A stretch of 64,000 nucleotides of DNA from Helicobacter sp. TUL. Its GTDB lineage: Bacteria > Campylobacterota > Campylobacteria > Campylobacterales > Helicobacteraceae. Shown here in pieces: positions 16,796 through 27,476 of the stretch. Location of the stretch: NCBI RefSeq assembly GCF_002287135.1, contig NZ_NESU01000001.1, forward strand, positions 124,001 to 188,000, in the 5' to 3' direction. The notes below the pieces were generated by a model. The model was given only the letters and a program-made list of their open reading frames with translations, made no database searches and was not told the origin of the DNA. The stretch's first letter is position 1. Every line of letters starts with the position of its first letter. The position numbers were made by a program, and so were the translations under genes.

Positions 16796-16802
16796 CCCCC
16801 TC

Positions 16803-16831
16803 ACTTCTCTTGTGGCACACACAAGAGAAGT
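16803..16831 (+). terminator. Hairpin terminator after frdCAB
   Basis: A perfect 12-bp stem (ACTTCTCTTGTG / CACAAGAGAAGT) with a five-base loop lies eight bases after the frdB stop. It has no strict T-run directly behind it, though the next 30 bases are T-rich, so it may act as a terminator or as a 3'-end stabilizer. Confidence 0.75.
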
Positions 16832-16865
16832 ACATCCAATACTTTTGATTTTTCAAAAAATATCG

Positions 16866-16871
16866 TATAAT
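16866..16871 (+). promoter_or_regulatory. -10 element (TATAAT) for the ATP-grasp/aminotransferase block
   Basis: TATCGTATAAT stands 31 bases before the ATG at 16903, which has AAGGA at 16891. The apparent ATG at 16870 falls inside this -10 box and is therefore not the start. Confidence 0.6.
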
Positions 16872-16902
16872 GTCGCAATCTTTATCAAAAAAGGATTTTG
16901 TT

Positions 16903-18057
16903 ATGTTCCAAGGACTCAAATCCCAAGTTAAATCTTATGCAAAACGCATGATATATTCATATCGCCAAGCACAATCATTAAAATATTTCTTTGATAAAAC
17001 CACTCAATATATGGCTATCCACAAAACTTTAAAACCATTGCCTTTGGAGCACAAAGAAGCTGTATTGGATTATTGGAGCAAATTTATAAATATGGGGGGG
17101 GGTAATACACAAAGGCTTAAACTCACTCTGGACTGGCACACAATCATCTATAATGTTAATCAATCGCATCCATTAGATGTCCGTTATTTAGATAATCCAT
17201 TTTACTATCTCAACATACTTCCATACTTTAATCCTCAAAATTATGCCTCAACTTTTGCCGACAAAAACTATTACGACACGCTTTTCCCACATCACCACAA
17301 ACCAAAAAGCATTATAAAAAATATCCGAGGCAATTTCTATCAACCACACAATAATAATCCTAATGTGCTTATCCCAATAGACAAAAATTCTGCTATACAG
17401 CTTATGAAATCTTATGAAAAGGTAGTAGTAAAACCTACTGAATCTGATACAACAGGATCAGGTAAAAATGTGCAAATTCTTTATACTCAACAAGATGAAG
17501 CACTGATCACACAAACCTTACAAGACTACAAGAATGATTATATTGTGCAAGAGTTTATACAACAACATTCCTATCTTAGCAATCTCAATGAAAGTTCAGT
17601 TAATACCTTTAGAATTATGACTCTTCTATACAAGGGTAAGATTCATACACTCCCCAGTAGTCTTCTTGTGGGAGATACACGTCCGACATCTAATGGCGGA
17701 TTTTTTCGAATTGGCATTGATCAATCTGGTAATTTACGGAACTTTATTATCAGGGGCAAGGGAGAAGCAATATCATCCCTGCCTAATGTTAAAGGGGATT
17801 TTGATGTACAAATTCCACACTTTTCGGATGTCATAGATATGGCTAAGTCTATGCATATGTGTATTCCACATATTGGACTTGTTGGTTGGGATTTTAGTCT
17901 TGATAAAGTTGGTAATCCCATTTTTATAGAACTTAATCCCATGTATCCTGGGTCTGAAATTATAGAGCTTTGTAATACTCCATTATTTGGTGATTTGAGC
18001 GATGAAATTTTTGCAGAAGTCACTAAAAAAGATCAAATTTTGAAAACTGTGTTATAA
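16903..18057 (+). CDS. Sugar-transfer-associated ATP-grasp protein, phase-variable (G9)
   Basis: This 384-residue protein shows ATP-grasp features: VVVKPTESDTTGSGKNV for the nucleotide-binding loop, IVQEFIQQH, NTFRIMTLL, GGFFRIGID and the metal-binding end VGWDFSL...FIELNPMYPGSE. It resembles the ATP-grasp family found beside glycosyltransferases in polysaccharide loci, which ligate amino groups to carboxylates. A run of nine Gs at codons 64-67 keeps the frame ON here; ten Gs give an immediate TAA and eight Gs a stop about 30 codons on. It is the first of four co-directional genes (ATP-grasp, two aminotransferases, HAD phosphatase), so it may form an amide on a uronic acid. That role is inferred. 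Confidence 0.8.
   Translation: MFQGLKSQVKSYAKRMIYSYRQAQSLKYFFDKTTQYMAIHKTLKPLPLEHKEAVLDYWSKFINMGGGNTQRLKLTLDWHTIIYNVNQSHPLDVRYLDNPFYYLNILPYFNPQNYASTFADKNYYDTLFPHHHKPKSIIKNIRGNFYQPHNNNPNVLIPIDKNSAIQLMKSYEKVVVKPTESDTTGSGKNVQILYTQQDEALITQTLQDYKNDYIVQEFIQQHSYLSNLNESSVNTFRIMTLLYKGKIHTLPSSLLVGDTRPTSNGGFFRIGIDQSGNLRNFIIRGKGEAISSLPNVKGDFDVQIPHFSDVIDMAKSMHMCIPHIGLVGWDFSLDKVGNPIFIELNPMYPGSEIIELCNTPLFGDLSDEIFAEVTKKDQILKTVL
17094..17102 (+). repeat. Poly-G (9) phase-variation tract inside the ATP-grasp gene
   Basis: Nine consecutive Gs lie inside the coding frame (ATG GGG GGG GGT). Such tracts slip during replication in Helicobacter and Campylobacter. The present length is in frame; plus or minus one base truncates the protein at about residue 67 to 95. 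Confidence 0.85.
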
Positions 18058-18122
18058 TTCTCTAGACAGAATGTCGGAGTTAAAAAACTTGGAATTGTAT
18101 CATTGCATTAAGGAATTTAAAT

Positions 18123-19298
18123 ATGATAAAGTCTTATAAATCTCAAACAACAAGTGGTAATCATGCTTCAATACAGGAATACAACAATTCTAACTTTCAT
18201 GAGGATTTACAAAAACAAGATTCTAAGAATACATTACTACCCTCTAATCATTACGTTCAAACTCTTAAACCATATATTCCCACTTCACATAAAGTTTGGG
18301 AACAGCCACATAAAGAAAAGATTTTAAAACTTGATTGGAATGAATCCACGCTACCACCATCACCTTTAGTTACACAAGCCTTACAAGAGTATCTAAACAC
18401 AGGTGTCTTGCAGTGGTATCCTGACACAAAAAATACAGAACTCTACACACTTCTCGCCCAATATGTCGGTGTCGATTCAGACCAAATCGAGGTCTTTGGT
18501 GGTTCAGATTGTGCACATGAATATATCCTTCAGGTCTTTTTAGATACGAATACAAAGGTTCTAATAGTCTCCCCTACATATGATAATTTCCGAGCTAGAG
18601 CGCAAGGCATTGGAATTAACACATATTTTTTCCCTCTCTCATCAGATTTTAGTTTAAACTTTGAAGCCTTAAATGAAGCTATCATAAACTATACTCCACA
18701 GATGGTCTATGTTTGCAATCCAAACAATCCTACAGGCACGGCCTATTGTAGCACTCAATTACAAAACCTAATCCAAGCCCATCCTTACACGATATTTCTT
18801 ATTGACGAAGCATACTATGAATTTTGTGGCCAAACTTTGTCCCATCTCACAACCACGTATAAAAACCTTATTATTACAAGAACATTTTCTAAAGCATTTG
18901 GTTTAGCAAGTTTTCGTGTTGGCTATTGCATAAGTCATGCGCAAAATATAGCTTTGATTAACAAATTACGCAATCCCAAAAGTCTCTCTGCATTTGCACA
19001 AATAGCAGCTACATATGCCCTTAAAGACGAACAATACATGTGGGCATATGTAGAAGAAATAAAAAACGCTAGAGAGTGGTTTAATACACAACTTGATGAT
19101 CTCGATATTAAAACTTACCCTTCATCGGCAAATTTTATACTCATTTCTCACATAGAGGATCTCTACAGGCTTTTGGAGCAACATCAAATCTTTATACGAG
19201 ACTATCGTCATATTATTCCTAATCACTTTCGAATCACTATTGGCACACGCACTCAAATGGAAAAAGTCATTGAAGTATTAAGGGGGGGGGGGCAATAA
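18123..19298 (+). CDS. HisC-like aminotransferase with poly-G at the 3' end (Cj1437-like?)
   Basis: This is a fold-type I PLP enzyme of 391 residues. Its core begins near residue 68 at LDWNES and resembles histidinol-phosphate aminotransferase. It shows FGGSDCAHEYI, VCNPNNPTGT, IDEAYYEF, the PLP lysine in TFSKAFGLAS and a late FRITIGTR. About 65 N-terminal residues precede the core. The last codons are a run of 11 Gs, giving the tail RGGGQ. With ten Gs the frame would run on about 55 codons to a TAA overlapping the next ribosome-binding site. The order with its neighbours suggests the DHAP-to-serinol-phosphate transaminase of C. jejuni capsule synthesis; this is inference from order. Confidence 0.8.
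   Translation: MIKSYKSQTTSGNHASIQEYNNSNFHEDLQKQDSKNTLLPSNHYVQTLKPYIPTSHKVWEQPHKEKILKLDWNESTLPPSPLVTQALQEYLNTGVLQWYPDTKNTELYTLLAQYVGVDSDQIEVFGGSDCAHEYILQVFLDTNTKVLIVSPTYDNFRARAQGIGINTYFFPLSSDFSLNFEALNEAIINYTPQMVYVCNPNNPTGTAYCSTQLQNLIQAHPYTIFLIDEAYYEFCGQTLSHLTTTYKNLIITRTFSKAFGLASFRVGYCISHAQNIALINKLRNPKSLSAFAQIAATYALKDEQYMWAYVEEIKNAREWFNTQLDDLDIKTYPSSANFILISHIEDLYRLLEQHQIFIRDYRHIIPNHFRITIGTRTQMEKVIEVLRGGGQ
19282..19292 (+). repeat. Poly-G (11) phase-variation tract at the aminotransferase 3' end
   Basis: Eleven Gs form the last glycine codons. Loss of one G (or gain of two) shifts into a frame open to the stop at 19459-19461, adding about 55 residues rich in Ile, Leu and Phe. Gain of one G gives only eight further codons. 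The tract would thus switch the C-terminus rather than abolish the protein. Confidence 0.8.
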
Positions 19299-19470
19299 CA
19301 AAACCATCTATGTAATATTTCTACTATTTATCCACGCATCAAACTTCCCATTTTGTACTATTTTTACCTCCAAAATCTTATTAGTGTTATGTCTGCTTTA
19401 TTTATATCACACACATTCTACAACTTCCATACCCAGTCACATATTTAGAAACCCATACTAAGGAGATTTT

Positions 19471-20640
19471 ATGCAATTCACTAAAGAACAGAGAATTATT
19501 GCAGAACAAATTAAAACATTAAAACATGCTGCTGGTAGTCATAGTCCAAGTATCTTAACACTTACACAGCAAATACCAAACCTGAATATCGATATTGATG
19601 CATGTTTTTTATCCAATCCATATGCTACAGATCTTTTTATGGATTACATGAAGCACGATCTAATTAGTACACAATCAATCAGAAATGTATTGGAGTTTTA
19701 CCCATCACAAAATGGTGTAATTGCTGAAATCTTAGCACAACGCTTAGGCATTGATAAAGAATGTTTATTTATAGGAAATGGGGCTATAGAAGTTATCCAA
19801 GCGATTTTACATAATTTTGTGCAACACAAAATCATAGTCAACATCCCTACATTTTCGTCCTACTATGAATTTAGCAATGCCAAAACCGAAGTGGTATTCT
19901 ACCAATTAGAAAAAGATAAAAACTTTATGCTAGATGTATCATCCTATATTGAATTCGTAAGGACTCAAAAACCACAAAGTGTCGTTATTATCAATCCTAA
20001 TAATCCAAATGGTGGCTACATACCTTATGAAGATCTCCGAACAATTATTGCAAATCTACCAGAAGTAGAGAACATTATTATTGATGAAAGTTTTCTACAC
20101 TTTGCCTTTGAAGATGATGAGTATAAGTTCATTTCATACAAGACACTTTTTTCAGAATTTCCTAATGTAATTTTAATAAAAAGCATGTCAAAAGATTTTG
20201 GTATAGCTGGTATTCGTGCAGGATATGGGGTTATGGCGAAAGACAAGGTTTCCAAGCTTCTAAATAATGGCTACTTATGGAACTCAAATGGACTTAGTGA
20301 ATATTTCTTCAGACTCTACGCACAAGACATATTTACAAACAAATACGAAAGTGTTAGAAAGCTCTATATTCAGCAAACACAAGATTTTTTTATGCGTCTT
20401 TCTGAAATCCCTCAACTTAAGATTTATCCAAGCAAAGCAAATTTTGCTCTCATAGAAATCTTAGATTGGAAAGAAGATTTAGACTTTGTAATGACGATGC
20501 TTATCAAATATGGAATCTATATACGCACATGTAGTGATAAAGTGGGACTTGATGAATCATTTATACGTCTAGCTTCAAGAAGCAAAAGCGAAAATGATCA
20601 AATCATACAGGCGCTAACTGATGTTTTTTCGCTTGCTTAA
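19471..20640 (+). CDS. Class I/II PLP aminotransferase or decarboxylase (Cj1436-like?)
   Basis: The 389-residue fold-type I enzyme has GNGAIEVIQAI, NPNNPNGGY, IDESFLHF, and the PLP lysine in KSMSKDFGIAGIRAGYG. It is distantly related to histidinol-phosphate aminotransferases and to CobD-type threonine-phosphate decarboxylases. AAGGAG (19460-19465) is five bases from the ATG. It has no homopolymer tract, unlike the gene before it. The proposed role, decarboxylation of serine phosphate to ethanolamine phosphate by analogy with C. jejuni Cj1436, rests on gene order and size only. Confidence 0.75.
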   Translation: MQFTKEQRIIAEQIKTLKHAAGSHSPSILTLTQQIPNLNIDIDACFLSNPYATDLFMDYMKHDLISTQSIRNVLEFYPSQNGVIAEILAQRLGIDKECLFIGNGAIEVIQAILHNFVQHKIIVNIPTFSSYYEFSNAKTEVVFYQLEKDKNFMLDVSSYIEFVRTQKPQSVVIINPNNPNGGYIPYEDLRTIIANLPEVENIIIDESFLHFAFEDDEYKFISYKTLFSEFPNVILIKSMSKDFGIAGIRAGYGVMAKDKVSKLLNNGYLWNSNGLSEYFFRLYAQDIFTNKYESVRKLYIQQTQDFFMRLSEIPQLKIYPSKANFALIEILDWKEDLDFVMTMLIKYGIYIRTCSDKVGLDESFIRLASRSKSENDQIIQALTDVFSLA

Positions 20641-20723
20641 ATAGAAAAAATTATCATATCTTCGCTATACTAATCCGCAGAGAGTATCTTTAACTACTTA
20701 TCTAAGTATCATAGGAAATAAAA

Positions 20724-21374
20724 ATGCAAAAAATATTAGCTATTTTTGATTTTTGTGAGACACTAGTTTCTATTCAAAGTCTTTTGCCATATTTAGAAAT
20801 GGTTGGTAAGGAAAATCCTCACTACAATGGGAGAATATTACGCTTGCAGCAAAGAATATTACCACGCCTTCACAGATACACAAAAATTCCTTTATTTGAT
20901 TTCAAAGCTCCTCGCTATCCTCAATTAAAAGGAATGGATATATTGCACGCTCGAGAGCTAGCAAAAGAATATGTGCAAAAAGAGCTTATATATAAAACCA
21001 ACGAAAAGGTGTTGGAACGATTACGATTTCATCAAGAAAATGGGCATACTATCATCATAGTTTCCGGAGGGCTAGAAATATACATCACAGAATTTGCCAA
21101 GCTTTTTGGCATAGAAAATGTGGTAGCGATTAGCCTACAAGAACAAAATGGAATTTTAAATGGTGAAATAGATGGGATTCATACCATGGAGTATCGCAAG
21201 CTTTATAAGCTTACACAAATGTTTGATATGAGTATGTTTGACCTCCAAAATTCCTATGCATACAGCGACTGCCCTAGTGATATACCATTGCTTTCTTTTG
21301 TAGGAAATGGTGTAGCTATAGAATGCGGAAAAGATATACAATGGGCAAAGATCATGGGATATAAGATTTTATAA
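20724..21374 (+). CDS. HAD-IB family phosphatase (SerB-like, Cj1435-like?)
   Basis: The 216-residue HAD hydrolase has motif I as FDFCETLV, motif II as IIIVSGGLE, a Lys in EYRKLYK, and motif IV as YSDCPSDIPLL with a GNGVAI tail. The second aspartate of the usual DxD is a cysteine here, which is unusual because that residue is the general acid. It would remove phosphate from a small amino-alcohol phosphate made by the two enzymes before it, by analogy with the C. jejuni serinol/ethanolamine capsule pathway. An 83-base gap with a possible GCTATACT promoter precedes it. Confidence 0.75.
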   Translation: MQKILAIFDFCETLVSIQSLLPYLEMVGKENPHYNGRILRLQQRILPRLHRYTKIPLFDFKAPRYPQLKGMDILHARELAKEYVQKELIYKTNEKVLERLRFHQENGHTIIIVSGGLEIYITEFAKLFGIENVVAISLQEQNGILNGEIDGIHTMEYRKLYKLTQMFDMSMFDLQNSYAYSDCPSDIPLLSFVGNGVAIECGKDIQWAKIMGYKIL

Positions 21375-21387
21375 TAAGTTTTTCCAC

Positions 21388-21549
21388 TACAAAAATATCG
21401 AACCTAAGGTTTTTGCCGAAGAACTTTTGGGAGAGAGTGTGCAGATTCCACAAACTCAAGACTTAGATTCACAAAAGATTGAAAATGGTAATTTTCATAC
21501 ATTGTTGCAAAACTTCAAAGTGCCTGATGATTATAAGTTTCATTGTTTT
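21388..21549 (+). repeat. Inverted repeat A, left copy (162 bp)
   Basis: This segment matches the reverse complement of 22432-22593 over 162 bases with two mismatches. Both copies encode the same part of the TupA-like ATP-grasp protein (YKNIEPKVFAEELL to YKFHCF). Together with repeat B it frames the broken copies and the end of the intact gene. Confidence 0.9.
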
Positions 21550-21824
21550 GGAGATGAAATATTTGTGCAAGTAGATACGGATAGATTTATAAATCACACA
21601 AGAACAATTTTTGATGCTCAGTGGCAGAAAATGCCTTTCACATACTTATACCCACTTTATACACCAAAAATTGACAAGCCAAAAAATTTTCTACTTTTAA
21701 AAGAAATAGCTCGGAAACTTTGTGGAGATTTTGCAATGATGCGTGTAGACACATACTGCATAAATCATAAAGTTTATATTGGTGAGTTGACTTTTACGCC
21801 AGAGGGTGGGACTGGTAAATTTAC

Positions 21825-21874
21825 TCCAAATGAATGGGATGCAAAGTTAGGAAGTTTGTGGCATATGAAAAACT
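21825..21874 (+). repeat. Inverted repeat B, left copy (50 bp)
   Basis: Fifty bases encoding PNEWDAKLGSLWHMKN are identical to the reverse complement of 22086-22135, the 3' end of the intact TupA-like gene. Confidence 0.9.
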
Positions 21875-21883
21875 GATTTGTGA

Positions 21884-22021
21884 ATTACTTTAGACAATAG
21901 CTATGTGCTAGAGCAGCAACTTTACATTGGAGAACTTACAATGACACCAAGTGGTGGTTGTTTGCCTATTAGACCATATAAGTATGATGCAATTTTGGGA
22001 AATTTTTGGAGCGGTATTTGA
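21884..22021 (+). pseudogene. Second remnant of a TupA-like ATP-grasp C-terminus
   Basis: A 45-codon frame without a start (LDNSYVLEQQLYIGELTMTP, then SGG and ILGNFWSGI) ends in TGA TAA. It matches the final metal-binding part of TupA-like ATP-grasp proteins (xYIGELTxTPxGG ... LGxxW), but differs in sequence from the intact gene and from the fragment before it. It is therefore a third C-terminal version, reduced to a tail. Confidence 0.7.
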
Positions 22022-22083
22022 TAACACATCAGAATCTGAATTTAACAAATATTGACAAATAAATATCATGTTATAGCCCCGAG

Positions 22084-23271
22084 TTAGTTTTTCATATGCC
22101 ACAAACTTCCTAACTTTGCATCCCATTCATTTGGAATACATCGCTCTGTGCCTCCACCATGGGTCAATGTAATTTCACCAACAATAATTTTTTGCGGTTT
22201 GTAAAAAGGTCTATAATATAAATCAATACGCACATAATCAAATGCCTTAGACAATATGAAAGATATATTTTCTAGATATTCCAAATCATTAGGCTTTGGT
22301 GGAATAGGGCGATTTGTATTGTCATATAAAAAACCAAAAGGAGCAAGTTTCCATTCTTTATTCAAAATGGTACGCTTATGGTTTGTGAATCTATTAGCGG
22401 TGAGTTGGACATAATACTCTCGCAATCCCTGAAAACAATGAAACTTATAATCATCAGGCACTTTGAAGTTTTGTAACGATGTATGAAAATTACCATTTTC
22501 AATCTTTTGTGAATCTAAGTCTTGAGTTTGTGGAATCTGCACACTCTCTCCCAAAAGTTCTTCGGCAAAAACCTTAGGTTCGATATTTTTGTAATGCCAC
22601 TCTCTAAAAAGAGTATAGAAATTTGTGTTAAGGTGCTTGGTGAGTTTTTCCATAGCTTCCCTAAATGCCTTAGAATCTCTCAAAAATGCTTCTTTATTCG
22701 GAACAATAACTACCCCACCTCCATCATGGTTCGTCTTAAGCACAAAAGAATTAGGCAATTCATCAAAGTTAATATCTTCTACACTTTTATAAATGCCATA
22801 GAGCTTTGGTAAAAATGGGCAAACATTGGTATCAAAAAGAAGCTGTGTAAGAGTATCGATGGGTGCAAATAATGGCGAAGAAGATTTAGGATCCAAAAAT
22901 GTCGGAGAATCTGCAAGAGTCTGAAATTTTTCTTTAAGCTCCTTAGATTGATTAGCTTTAGACATGCACGCTGCTTCACTCTCCAAATCAAGATTTGCAA
23001 GTTTTGCGGCAATATAAATTCTTGCCTTAAGTTTATCAGCAAGTGCAGTATAAAGAGGATTTCTATCATAGAGGATTCTGTGCACAATTTTTTCGTTAAA
23101 TGTTTGTGGATTCTTAAAATCTGGTGTATAGCCAAAGATTTTTTTATGTCTGCGTATGAAATATGCTTCATCATCAAGCTTGGATTCTATATAGGCATTA
23201 TACTTTTTACGCATAGGCAAAATATAGTGTTTATATATAGGATTTTCACGCACAAAAGACTTAAATGACAT
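22084..23271 (-). CDS. TupA-like ATP-grasp protein
   Basis: The 395-residue protein belongs to the TupA-like ATP-grasp family, common in capsule and teichuronopeptide loci and thought to join an amino acid or sugar amine to a glycan. It has the family N-terminus (RHKKIFGYTPDFKNPQTFNEKI), the nucleotide loop SFVLKTNHDGGGVVIV, EELLGES, and the metal-binding end DYVRIDLY...VGEITLTHGGGTE. The ATG has GGAGA close upstream. It faces the phase-variable block and its own truncated copies; inversion between the repeats would exchange its C-terminal 115 residues. Substrate unknown. Confidence 0.85.
   Translation of the reverse strand: MSFKSFVRENPIYKHYILPMRKKYNAYIESKLDDEAYFIRRHKKIFGYTPDFKNPQTFNEKIVHRILYDRNPLYTALADKLKARIYIAAKLANLDLESEAACMSKANQSKELKEKFQTLADSPTFLDPKSSSPLFAPIDTLTQLLFDTNVCPFLPKLYGIYKSVEDINFDELPNSFVLKTNHDGGGVVIVPNKEAFLRDSKAFREAMEKLTKHLNTNFYTLFREWHYKNIEPKVFAEELLGESVQIPQTQDLDSQKIENGNFHTSLQNFKVPDDYKFHCFQGLREYYVQLTANRFTNHKRTILNKEWKLAPFGFLYDNTNRPIPPKPNDLEYLENISFILSKAFDYVRIDLYYRPFYKPQKIIVGEITLTHGGGTERCIPNEWDAKLGSLWHMKN
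22086..22135 (-). repeat. Inverted repeat B, right copy (50 bp)
   Basis: This is the partner of 21825-21874, identical in reverse complement, at the extreme 3' end of the intact gene. Confidence 0.9.
22432..22593 (-). repeat. Inverted repeat A, right copy (162 bp)
   Basis: This is the partner of 21388-21549 in reverse complement, within the intact TupA-like gene at about residues 227-280. The 882 bases between the two copies hold both alternative C-terminal coding parts. Confidence 0.9.
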
Positions 23272-23335
23272 TATGTCTCCTTAATTTATTCTACAAGATT
23301 CTTTGTATTATCGCACATATTTACTAAAGCCTGAC

Positions 23336-24682
23336 TTACACACTCATTTCATATAATTTCTTGCGCTCACTAGAACTTGCGATATTGAGTTGTTGTCTAT
23401 ATTTAGTGATCGTTCGGCGCACCATTTTGATACCAAACTTCTCTTCAACACTTTTTAGAATCTTCACATCACTTAAAGGTTTTTTCTTATTTTCATTTTT
23501 GACAAGATCAAGGATAAAATCTTTAATCGAAGCATTGGAAGTTTCTCCATCTACGGCCGCAGTAAAAAAACTCTTGATAGGGAAGATTCCCCGATCGCAT
23601 TCTAAGTATTTGTTGGCGATAGCGCGAGAGATTGTGCTAGGTGCATAGCCCAAATCTTGGGCAATATCTTTAAGCTTCATTGGGCGTATTTCTCCACCCA
23701 TAAAAAAATCATATTGATTTTCGCGCAACGCCAAAGCGATTTTTAAAATCGTAGCCTTGCGCATATCTAGCGCATCGACAAGATCTTTTGCTTCTTTAAG
23801 TTTATCGCGGATAAAACTTTGGGCTTGTTTTTGCGCATCGCTTTGGGATTTTGTCTGCTTGCTTGATGTGTCTTGATGTTCGATAATGATTTTAGGATAA
23901 TACATATCATTCACACGCACTTCAAGCTCATAAGTATGTTGCAATGAATCTTCCTTTAGGCGCTCAAAAATAAAAATATCTGGTATCACCTCTGGAATCT
24001 TCACACCAAAATCACAAGTTGGTGGATTTCTAAAACGTTTTATAGTGCGCATTACCTCATCATAATATGGATTGTTTTTATGTATTGCGTGGTTTTGGAG
24101 ATTGTTAATAATCTCTAATCCCAAAGTAAAGGCTTCATCATTTAAATCACTCTCTTGCAGCTGAAAATGCAAAGATTCTCTCATATCTTTTGCACCCACA
24201 CCACAAGGCTCAAGATACACAAATCGCCCTCGCACACGCTCAAATTCCTCCACGCTCACGCCCACTTCCTCTGCAAGTTCTGCCACATCACAATCCAAAT
24301 ATCCTTCATCATTGATATTTTCAATGATACTATAAGCGATGTTTTGAGAAGTTTGACTTGGGAAAAGGCGTGGTGTTATTTGTGTAAGCAAACTCTCATA
24401 TAAATCCTGCGTGGTAGTGCTTAGAGATTCTATCTTGTCTGTAATAGAGTTTTTTTGCGATTGGGATTTAGAGGTAGCCTTAGATTTTTGTGGCAGGGAT
24501 TGTGTGCGTTGGCTTTGAATCTGCACATAAGGATTTTCTTGGGCAAACTCTTGCACAATTTCTTCTATACTATCAGCTCCACTTTGTAAGATAGGTAGCC
24601 AATTTTTTAGCGTTGCCGAGAGCTTTGGTTTTATAGCGACATTGGTGCGTAATCTCCCTCCTAAACCCGATCTTGCACTCAT
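23336..24682 (-). CDS. rpoN: RNA polymerase sigma-54 factor RpoN
   Basis: RpoN (448 residues) directs transcription of the middle flagellar genes in this group. The core-binding domain (about 100-300) contains ENINDEGYLD and LEPCGVGAKDMRES; the DNA-binding end has the HTH STISRAIANKYLECDRG and the RpoN box as RRTITKYRQQL. The N-terminal activator-interacting region is short. Two sigma-54 promoters in this window (flgG at 28218, fliK at 55398) would be its targets. The start overlaps the lptB stop as ATGA. Confidence 0.95.
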   Translation of the reverse strand: MSARSGLGGRLRTNVAIKPKLSATLKNWLPILQSGADSIEEIVQEFAQENPYVQIQSQRTQSLPQKSKATSKSQSQKNSITDKIESLSTTTQDLYESLLTQITPRLFPSQTSQNIAYSIIENINDEGYLDCDVAELAEEVGVSVEEFERVRGRFVYLEPCGVGAKDMRESLHFQLQESDLNDEAFTLGLEIINNLQNHAIHKNNPYYDEVMRTIKRFRNPPTCDFGVKIPEVIPDIFIFERLKEDSLQHTYELEVRVNDMYYPKIIIEHQDTSSKQTKSQSDAQKQAQSFIRDKLKEAKDLVDALDMRKATILKIALALRENQYDFFMGGEIRPMKLKDIAQDLGYAPSTISRAIANKYLECDRGIFPIKSFFTAAVDGETSNASIKDFILDLVKNENKKKPLSDVKILKSVEEKFGIKMVRRTITKYRQQLNIASSSERKKLYEMSV

Positions 24683-25401
24683 GCTTTAAAATTCTCTCCC
24701 AAATAATATTTACGCACAAGGGCATTTTGATAAATCTCTTGTGCATTACCGCTCGCCAAAAGTGCGCCACTTTTGATAACATAACTTCTATGACAAACCG
24801 ATAGCGTCTCACGCACATTATGATCTGTGATAAGCACACCTATATCAAGCTCAATAAGCTTTAAAATAATATTTTGGATATCTACCACTGCTTTGGGATC
24901 CACTCCAGCAAATGGCTCATCAAGCAAGACAAATTTAGGATTTTTTACCAATGCTCTTGCGATTTCTACACGCCGACGCTCCCCACCGCTCAAGCTCACA
25001 CCCTTTCTTGCGCGGATTGGCTCGATGTTAAATTCTTCTAGCATTTTTTCTATGCGAATCTTGCGCTCTTTGACACTTTTTATACTCGCCTCTGCCGCCA
25101 AAAGAAGATTTTCCTCTACACTTAAATCTTTAAAAATACTTGATTCTTGCGGAAGATAGCCAATACCCATATTAGATCGCGCGTGCAATGGAAGCTTTGT
25201 GATATCAGATCCATTTAAATACACTGCCCCAGAGGTTGGGTGCAAAAGTCCGCATATCATATAAAAAGTCGTGGTTTTTCCAGCACCATTTGGTCCCAAA
25301 AGTCCCACAACTTCCTTACTATTGACTTCCAAAGAAACATCATTAACAATTTTTGTTTTTTTGATTTGCTTACTAAGATTGTGTGCTTGTAATGTATTCA
25401 T
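24679..25401 (-). CDS. lptB: LPS export ABC transporter ATPase LptB
   Basis: LptB (240 residues) powers LPS extraction from the inner membrane together with LptFG. Walker A GPNGAGKTT, signature SLSGGERRRVEIARA, Walker B FVLLDEPFAGVDP, and the H-loop TDHNVRE are all present. The AGVDP and GGERRR forms are typical of LptB rather than amino acid transporters. It overlaps tsaE by 29 bases and rpoN by four, so the genes are translationally coupled. Confidence 0.93.
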   Translation of the reverse strand: MNTLQAHNLSKQIKKTKIVNDVSLEVNSKEVVGLLGPNGAGKTTTFYMICGLLHPTSGAVYLNGSDITKLPLHARSNMGIGYLPQESSIFKDLSVEENLLLAAEASIKSVKERKIRIEKMLEEFNIEPIRARKGVSLSGGERRRVEIARALVKNPKFVLLDEPFAGVDPKAVVDIQNIILKLIELDIGVLITDHNVRETLSVCHRSYVIKSGALLASGNAQEIYQNALVRKYYLGENFKA

Positions 25402-25810
25402 CGCTGATTATATACTCCCTTTCTCCAGAATCTAAAGGCACAATATCCACACGCACAATTGCAAAACCACATTTTTGCAAAAGATCTTTGATACCCGTAT
25501 CAGCCCATTCGATAAAATGTATACCCTCACGCTCAAAAAGTTCAATAAATCCAAGTTCTAAGAGGTGATTATATTCTTTTTGATAAAAATCATAATGAAA
25601 TACATCATCATAATCTTGTGAAAGACTAAAGGTGGGCGAAGTCACATCATCTCTGCCACCCCTAAAACGCACAAAATTTCTCACAAGTGTCGTCTTGCCA
25701 CTCCCCAAATCACCATTAAGCAAAAAAAAGACTCGCTTGTGTCCTTTTGTGCGTGAATCTAAATAGCCACAAAGTGGCTCCAAACCTTCCTCTCCTAGTG
25801 TAAATGTCAT
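25373..25810 (-). CDS. tsaE: tRNA threonylcarbamoyladenosine synthesis ATPase TsaE
   Basis: TsaE is the small ATPase of the TsaBDE complex that makes t6A in tRNAs. The 145 residues show Walker A NGDLGSGKTTLVRN, the SPTFSLSQDY segment, HYDFYQ and the FIEWAD end. Two ATGs are adjacent; the AAGGAGGA leader is better spaced from the second, at 25810. It sits between dnaX and lptB, as in H. pylori. Confidence 0.93.
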   Translation of the reverse strand: MTFTLGEEGLEPLCGYLDSRTKGHKRVFFLLNGDLGSGKTTLVRNFVRFRGGRDDVTSPTFSLSQDYDDVFHYDFYQKEYNHLLELGFIELFEREGIHFIEWADTGIKDLLQKCGFAIVRVDIVPLDSGEREYIISDEYITSTQS

Positions 25811-25832
25811 CATTCCTCCTTGTGCGTGATAT

Positions 25833-27476
25833 TTAGGATTTAAAATAATCTTTAATCCCCAAATGCTCCTCCAAGCTTGCTACAATCTCTTTATTGTGCT
25901 CTATAAACTCTCTATCTTGAGCTTTTTGGCTGTTTGGAGTGCTTTGGCTTGTAGGCATATCTTGATTTCCTTGCGTGTCTGTATGCATCACAATATCTTG
26001 ATTTACCTCATTTTCTTGTGCCTTAGTAGCTTGTGGTTGTGTGAGTTGTAGTTGTGATTTTTGCACGCTAATTTTAGTATGTGCACCAAAAACTTGCGCT
26101 ACAAATGCCTTTATAATCTCAAAATGTCGCGTAAGTCTCTCTTTATCCTCACCCTCCGCACTTGAATGCCAAGTAAGCGTGTCATTTTCAAAACTCACAA
26201 ATTTCACACACCGCGCAAAACACTCACCTAACTCATAATTTCTGTCATATAGCTTTTGTGTAAGGATTTCAAAAGGGCTTTGAATCTTTGGAATAGGTGC
26301 TTGTGTGGGATTTTGTGCTAGATTCTGTGTGGATTGGCTCTGTAGTTGATTTTGTATCGGTTGGCTTGGCAAAACATTTGCTGTAGTATGTGTAGCATTT
26401 GGAGTTGAAGCACCAAAAATTTGATGTTCCAAATCCACAATCATCGCATCAATTTCTTTTATTTTTAGGGCTTCTTGCATTTTGAGCAAAGTTAGCAAAA
26501 GCACAAAACTTCCATCGGTATTGTGTGCAAGCAAGATTTTAGAATCTGTTAGGATTCTAAAAAATCTATCCAAAAGCAAGGGCGGATAGGCTTTATCATT
26601 TGCCAAAAGCTTGTCTTTAAGGAAAAGTATCATTTCATCTATGATCATCTCACTTTCGTATTCTTGCAATACCTCTATACTTGCTTGAATGTCGCTAAGG
26701 TTGTTTGCCAAAAGATTGCCAAAAAGCTCACTAAAAATCTGTGGATCAACGATGCCTAACATATCCGTAACGCCACTTGTATCAATATCATTTTTACAAA
26801 AAATAATCGCTTGATCAAGAAGTGTTAATGTATCTCGCAAACTTCCAGATCCACTACGCGCGATAATTTCTAATGCTTGTGTGTCATATCGCACTTGTTC
26901 TTTATCCAAAATATGGGCAATATGCTCCACCACAAGCCGTTGTGGGATTTGTTTAAACCTAAAATGCTGTGTCCTGCTTAAAATCGTGGGTGGGAGTTTG
27001 AGCGGATCTGTCGTAGCCAAAATAAATTTTACATATTCAGGTGGTTCTTCAAGCGTTTTTAATAATGCGTTAAATGCCTCGCGTGTAAGCATATGCACTT
27101 CATCAATGATAAAAATCTTGTATCGTCCAAATGCTGGGCGATATTTAGTCTGCTCGATAAGATCACGAATATCATCAATCTTGCGACTAGAAGCCGCGTC
27201 CATTTCAATAATATCCAAATGCCTACCCTCTAATGCAGCCTTGCAATTTTGACATTCACCGCAGGGCTTTGAAGTAGGTCCTTTATCGCATTGCAAAGAG
27301 CGCGAAAAGATTCTAGCTGAACTCGTTTTCCCACTGCCACGCAAACCACTAAAAAGATAGGCGTGTGAGATATGTTTAGAATCTAGCGCAAGAGAAAGCG
27401 TTTGAGAAACCGCGTGCTGTCCTATGAGATCCTCAAAGGTAGTGGGGCGATATTTCAAAGCAAGAGCTAATGACAT
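25833..27476 (-). CDS. dnaX: DNA polymerase III subunit gamma/tau
   Basis: This is the clamp-loader ATPase, 547 residues. It has Walker A GLRGSGKTSSA, the zinc-binding CDKGP...CGECQNC, Walker B IIDEVHML, the SRC-like segment SRTQHFRF, and the sensor GSLRDTLTLLDQA. The region after residue 360 is a low-complexity Gln/Ser/Thr linker followed by a short C-terminal domain. No slippery heptamer of the E. coli type was noticed. AAAGGA precedes the ATG. Confidence 0.93.
   Translation of the reverse strand: MSLALALKYRPTTFEDLIGQHAVSQTLSLALDSKHISHAYLFSGLRGSGKTSSARIFSRSLQCDKGPTSKPCGECQNCKAALEGRHLDIIEMDAASSRKIDDIRDLIEQTKYRPAFGRYKIFIIDEVHMLTREAFNALLKTLEEPPEYVKFILATTDPLKLPPTILSRTQHFRFKQIPQRLVVEHIAHILDKEQVRYDTQALEIIARSGSGSLRDTLTLLDQAIIFCKNDIDTSGVTDMLGIVDPQIFSELFGNLLANNLSDIQASIEVLQEYESEMIIDEMILFLKDKLLANDKAYPPLLLDRFFRILTDSKILLAHNTDGSFVLLLTLLKMQEALKIKEIDAMIVDLEHQIFGASTPNATHTTANVLPSQPIQNQLQSQSTQNLAQNPTQAPIPKIQSPFEILTQKLYDRNYELGECFARCVKFVSFENDTLTWHSSAEGEDKERLTRHFEIIKAFVAQVFGAHTKISVQKSQLQLTQPQATKAQENEVNQDIVMHTDTQGNQDMPTSQSTPNSQKAQDREFIEHNKEIVASLEEHLGIKDYFKS

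Follow-up and report, generated by a model that had tools for sequence, protein, structure and literature searches.

Layout of the locus and the encoded enzyme

The window, by which we mean the whole stretch of 64,000 nucleotides analysed from Helicobacter sp. TUL, contains a minus-strand gene for a TupA-like ATP-grasp ligase, which faces a C-terminal fragment of the same type on the plus strand (Table 1). Both match the profile PF14305 (ATPgrasp_TupA), the gene scoring 108.5 bits against a cut-off of 25 and the C-terminal halves of the two aligning over identical profile positions, 128–238. The initial annotation of this pair and its coordinates hold. The fragment lies directly behind a HAD phosphatase gene; its frame is open throughout, lacks an ATG in the first 84 codons and ends at a stop codon of its own. 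Its organisation is that of a silent cassette, a startless copy with homology to the flanks of one expression locus. The C-terminal classes to which gene and cassette belong carry names, alpha to zeta, coined in this analysis.

Table 1. Features of the locus, in window coordinates
Position	Strand	Feature	Evidence or remark
16870..18057	+	ATPgrasp_ST ligase, second ATP-grasp of the cluster	PF14397 E=1.5e-29
18123..19298	+	HisC-like PLP aminotransferase	PF00155; TIGR01141 just over cut-off
19471..20640	+	PLP decarboxylase, serine/threonine-phosphate type	PDB 6oux E=7e-108
20724..21374	+	HAD-IB phosphatase, putative Cj1435-like role	PF12710, TIGR01490, synteny with L102
21385..21549	+	5' inverted-repeat arm of the silent cassette, equivalent of residues 226–280	98% to other arm
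21388..21876	+	Silent class beta C-terminal cassette	PF14305 E=5e-26, frame, missing ATG
21825..21874	+	3' repeat at the end of the silent cassette, 50 nt, perfect	
21902..22083	+	Remnant of a third cassette (tail of class gamma plus sequence downstream of it)	93% to the 3' end of the H. equorum active gene and downstream
21902..22501	.	Block inverted relative to H. equorum, flanks collinear	same strand, 88% over 600 nt
22084..23271	-	Active TupA-like ATP-grasp ligase gene, 395 aa	PF14305 E=5e-31, AF2 model, class tree
		Halves of the active gene: residues 1–280 constant; 281–395 exchangeable, class alpha	class tree
22086..22135	-	3' repeat at the end of the active gene, 50 nt, perfect	
22432..22596	-	5' inverted-repeat arm within the active gene	inversion edge against H. 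equorum falls here

The 5' arms shared by the gene and the silent cassette (21388–21549 and 22432–22593) are 162 nt long with 2 mismatches and are separated by 882 nt; extended to 21385 and 22596, they reach 165 nt with 3 mismatches. Between the 5' and 3' repeats, the middle parts of the two cassettes are only about 55% identical in nucleotide sequence. This architecture, a 162-bp repeat with two mismatches and a perfect 50-bp repeat enclosing a diverged middle, agrees in every element with the earlier description. The next-longest inverted repeat in the surrounding 11 kb has 40 nt at 73% identity, which excludes a chance origin for the two repeats. The arm is read in the same frame in both cassettes, corresponding to gene residues 226 to 280, and a crossover at any point within it would therefore produce an in-frame fusion and an intact hybrid, as had been foreseen for recombination in the 162-bp repeat. 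As in recoding invertons, one repeat arm lies inside the gene and an alternative C-terminus is available in frame. The relic of the third cassette, which is decayed, lies between the active gene and the silent cassette and went unnoticed in the initial annotation.

An AF2 model of the active protein (pLDDT 80) has ATP-grasp amide ligases as its best folds, the leading PDB entries being PsnB, RimK, ArgX and Ddl at a probability of 1.00 and low TM scores of 0.27–0.30; a search of the PDB by sequence found no TupA-like structure. The cassette junction falls just past the strand formed by residues 273–280. Most class-specific residues lie at 287–320, and R348, D350, E366, T368 and T370 are conserved across classes; the silent beta cassette retains the conserved catalytic residues. 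To speak of an N-terminal ATP-binding half, as the initial annotation did, is thus roughly right, but the exchanged half also holds the conserved catalytic core of the ATP-grasp fold. By analogy, the gene product would amidate a uronic acid through amide bond formation, and the enzyme probably attaches small amines to surface sugars.

Comparison with H. equorum and the cassette arrays of relatives

The closest relative found, Helicobacter equorum, has at this locus an expressed gamma gene, a silent alpha cassette, a silent delta cassette and a gamma relic. Window segments 16801–21879 and 22432–26800 align with the opposite strand of H. equorum DNA, at 89% and 93% identity, whereas the block between them, comprising the gamma tail, a spacer and the whole alpha cassette, aligns on the same strand and is therefore inverted between the two species, one of its edges lying inside the 5' arm. 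Through this inversion alpha is active here and silent in H. equorum, and gamma is active there and a relic here. The active alpha half is 83% identical to the silent alpha half of H. equorum and 42% identical to its active half; the N-terminal halves of the two expressed genes are 91% identical. The segment thus occurs in both orientations between related genomes, again as in a recoding inverton, and the comparison of relatives that the initial annotation had proposed does reveal swapped C-terminal halves in the expressed position. These alignments support the view that exchange of the C-terminal half by inversion has occurred at the locus; the comparison is based on one genome per species and on a single between-species inversion, which could be a rare evolutionary event.

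Larger cassette arrays exist in relatives, and arrays occur in two genera. H. canis has one gene and four silent cassettes, the latter arranged as two convergent pairs flanked by inverted repeats of 121 and 241 nt, and classes beta, gamma and delta are all represented among the five. Between the silent cassettes of H. canis (record L039, 9287–9580 and 11090–11362) lie toxin genes resembling ParE and YafQ, accompanied by small partners; such toxin–antitoxin-like genes may help to retain the array. A sister genome (G103) likewise has five cassettes, of the same classes. There we observed REARRANGEMENT in one assembly: contigs C1 and C6 of G103 both contain the array locus. Their flanks differ by 3 mismatches and 29 gaps in 7.26 kb and by 0 mismatches and 2 gaps in 3.14 kb, and the cassette order is A-B-C-D-E on C1 and A-C-D(inverted)-B-E on C6, D being a convergent beta/gamma pair. 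A silent convergent pair appears flipped and another cassette moved, the changes coinciding with the repeats. Contig C6 is indel-rich, with single-base gaps, and looks like a low-coverage long-read contig; faulty assembly, or a sample that was mixed, may have produced the two arrangements.

In the 121 genomes of the family, tupA C-termini were found in 25, and a tree of 50 C-terminal halves resolves six classes carried on interchangeable N-terminal halves. The modularity is clearest in genome G101, where five scattered genes are nearly identical (mostly 98–100%) over about 1,080 nt and then continue into five different C-termini; in G095, the N-terminal parts of four genes are largely common. 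Class beta, silent here, occurs in complete single genes elsewhere. When the search was widened to the order, relatives beyond the family proved few, and the matches listed contained no additional array.

The contrast with poly-G switching that had been drawn for this locus stands for the present genome and for H. equorum, neither of which has a G9–G14 tract in the N-terminal half. It does not extend to the family: all 21 single-gene relatives checked carry such a tract in this position, and the H. canis and G103 arrays have a G9 tract there, so ON/OFF slippage and cassette exchange coexist within the family. The five genes of G101 (L081–L085) are full tupA genes, each with its own G11–G12 tract.

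Selection, recombination and competing explanations

Three pairs of cassettes, silent in H. canis as well as in G103, give dN/dS ratios (NG86) of 0.21, 0.16 and 0.20, values which show that silent cassettes are under purifying selection. With the class tree, this supports the alternative halves as distinct, selected and conserved classes. The 5' arms have 12 species-fixed sites against 1 position-fixed site, arms within a genome being more alike than orthologous arms. Continued recombination between the arms of a genome would leave this pattern, and recent separate duplication would leave one much like it.

We think it probable that this locus works as a cassette switch which exchanges, by recombination, the C-terminal half of a surface-polysaccharide amidoligase. 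A single expressed gene would provide the start, the promoter side and the N-terminal approximately 280 residues, with startless spare C-terminal halves of other classes next to it, mostly tail-to-tail and each opening with a full or partial copy of the approximately 160-nt junction sequence. When two junction copies undergo homologous recombination, the intervening segment would be inverted, or converted, and the gene thereby joined in frame to another C-terminal half, whose class would then pick the amine (serinol-P, ethanolamine-P or others) to be joined to the uronic acid of a surface glycan. Put simply, the back half of the gene can apparently be swapped for an alternative by flipping a short DNA segment, and the presence of up to four spare halves in relatives suggests that these bacteria keep changing their surface-sugar decoration. 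Judged by the comparisons above, the C-terminal cassette exchange system is real and selected, and it resides in a probable surface-glycan amidoligase. Of the switch first proposed for this DNA, the exchange by inversion (the H. equorum block and the G103 arrangements) and the selection on the classes survive; its simple two-state form is rejected on account of the third relic here and the larger arrays, H. equorum having three classes and H. canis five cassettes.

As to how the exchange is driven, no match to serine recombinases (PF00239) was found in this genome, which has two tyrosine recombinases (PF00589), both on other contigs, and a dedicated recombinase was not found nearby. In shufflons, the Rci invertase acts on short sfx sites; here no shufflon invertase gene is adjacent and short specific sites were not seen, the repeats being 70–241 nt long, mostly coding and of variable extent. 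All four array genomes have recA. The most parsimonious reading is homologous recombination, and a RecA-type process is the likely driver. Many known invertons work via a tyrosine recombinase, and with two such enzymes encoded in the genome an Xer-type recombinase might invert the segment site-specifically at a short core inside the repeats. We consider this quite unlikely, because neither gene is near the locus, serine recombinases are lacking, the shared repeats of 70 to 241 nt have different start points, and a non-exhaustive look at them revealed no common non-coding core, the common part having the appearance of coding constraint. Inversion accounts for the H. equorum difference; H. canis cassettes that point the same way as the gene would require either conversion or a two-step route. 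We infer that exchange is frequent enough for phase variation, that is, frequent and reversible.

One alternative is slow evolutionary mosaicism: C-terminal halves would change places only rarely, through horizontal transfer, conversion and an occasional inversion, with the spare halves as passive leftovers outside any working switch. It would account for the single orientation seen per available genome in most species, for the decay of the gamma relics, one here and another in H. equorum, and for G031a, where HisC and HAD fragments follow a zeta C-terminus, as after a past exchange. Against it stand the silent cassettes, which stay open with dN/dS of about 0.2, the homogenisation of arms within genomes, the two arrangements inside one assembly (G103) and the retention of arrays in two genera, and we regard mosaicism as unlikely. 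That the plus-strand half is a dead duplicate beside an ordinary single-function enzyme, as its missing start codon and N-terminal half might suggest, is scarcely credible: the cassette is fully open and keeps the conserved catalytic residues, its class is in use in complete single genes, and the locus is inverted between species. We reject it on the evidence of selection (dN/dS) and inversion.

Putative amine supply and relation to known systems

In the window, the HisC-like, Ser-P decarboxylase-like and HAD genes directly adjoin the switch. In Campylobacter jejuni, glucuronic acid is amidated by Cj1438C with (S)-serinol-P, the product of Cj1437, or with ethanolamine-P, the product of Cj1436, and Cj1435 takes off the phosphate (PMC11800397); the TupA-like ATP-grasp fold of Cj1438C is given in PMC11800379. 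By comparison, the HisC-like aminotransferase would have a Cj1437-like role, supplying serinol-P, and the PLP decarboxylase a Cj1436-like role, supplying ethanolamine-P. A Campylobacter sp. record (L102) has TupA, HisC, SerPdc and HAD consecutively, an order which matches the numbering of Cj1438 to Cj1435, of known enzymology. The UDP-glucose dehydrogenase family, relevant because the uronate precursor needs it, is present in all four array genomes.

Class and neighbourhood are correlated elsewhere in the family. Homologues of the HisC-like gene follow class alpha tupA genes in other genera. All five single class alpha genes, which come from three genera, have a HisC-like PLP aminotransferase and a HAD phosphatase behind them, and all six class epsilon genes have an amino-acid permease; exact tests of this link ignore kinship and use tables counted by hand. 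In G031 (L042, 8182–8695), HisC and HAD gene fragments lie behind a zeta-class C-terminus and are possibly leftovers of a past exchange from alpha.

The link is less strict than these counts imply. Strong homologues of the Ser-P decarboxylase occur in only 5 of 121 family genomes, namely all four array genomes and G100, and the gene was rejected as a marker of one cassette class. What is conserved beside it is ATPgrasp_ST, and in H. canis this pair stands about 55 kb away from the tupA array. The two genes adjoin in H. canis, G103 and G100, even with tupA far off. This pairing away from tupA suggests that ATPgrasp_ST may be the true user of ethanolamine-P. In G103, a HisC-like gene adjoins ATPgrasp_ST, yet there is no alpha cassette; HisC is thus not exclusive to alpha, a strict alpha–HisC rule is weakened, and the amine-supply genes may serve ATPgrasp_ST instead. 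Two G103 records share flanks around this ligase, L133 7940–10453 on C1 (ST-HisC-HAD) and L119 3719–6031 on C2 (ST-SerPdc-HAD), and differ by about 4–5% over one flank, as if the amine-supply gene were itself allelic or the sample mixed.

That the cassette selects the amine is, on sequence and analogy, the most likely reading. The cassette might instead alter the acceptor sugar or polymer context: Cj1438C takes both serinol-P and ethanolamine-P (PMC11800397), so that one C-terminus can use two amines, and a sequence search found no solved TupA-like structure. Against this, the class of the C-terminal half goes together with the amine-supply or amino-acid transport genes next to it, the N-terminal half being common to the classes, and we hold a change of acceptor to be possible but rather doubtful. 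The fuller reading, a combinatorial glycan switch in which C-terminal halves matched to amine-supply genes are shuffled under a constant N-terminal half, so that within a clone the amine on the polysaccharide would change, beyond the mere presence or absence of a modification, with an extra poly-G ON/OFF layer in some species, seems to us an evenly balanced proposition.

Surface sugars of Campylobacter and Helicobacter vary mostly via ON/OFF poly-G slippage. The present locus points to a second layer of variation, in which the modification chemistry itself is exchanged and which may also affect phage adsorption and host recognition. If so, it is a natural domain-swap experiment on an ATP-grasp ligase, one N-terminal half being combined with different C-terminal halves, in a family with little biochemistry. 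Together with neighbour genes that hint at each substrate, the swap makes TupA-like substrate specificity directly testable, and the link between cassette class and substrate supply at this locus is unusually so.

A literature search, with most subscription papers outside its coverage, turned up no description of this locus. Milman in 2023 and Chanin in 2024 reportedly described gene-altering programmed inversions and intragenic invertons. The likeness to such systems lies in an inverted repeat with one arm inside the gene and a C-terminus recoded by inversion, and the difference in an allelic class family common to several species and in the link to substrate-supply genes found here. The C. 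jejuni capsule pathway of Cj1438C (PMC11800397, PMC11800379) shares the TupA-like ATP-grasp enzyme and the set of aminotransferase, Ser-P decarboxylase and HAD phosphatase, but Cj1438 is fused to a glycosyltransferase, and the accessible parts of these papers describe no cassettes for it. Invertible hsdS specificity genes, known for example in Streptococcus pneumoniae (PMC4948785), also combine one expressed gene with partial or alternative genes in inverted orientation, and their inversion swaps the specificity-determining part to give several active states rather than ON/OFF; they differ in that here the target is a carbohydrate amidoligase, not DNA methylation, and the neighbourhood of the gene yielded no dedicated recombinase. 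Shufflons of the Rci, pilV type (PMC11852207) likewise have a constant N-terminal part and multiple C-terminal cassettes in both orientations, but have short sfx sites and the Rci invertase. At this locus, the repeats are 70–241 nt of mostly coding sequence with no invertase adjacent.

In S-layer switching of Campylobacter fetus, silent sap cassettes share a conserved 5' region and are exchanged by homologous recombination. The present locus resembles that system in belonging to the Campylobacterales, in the conserved 5' region common to its silent cassettes and in the homologous recombination proposed, but whereas sap switches whole surface proteins together with a promoter segment, here it is the C-terminal half of an enzyme that would be exchanged.
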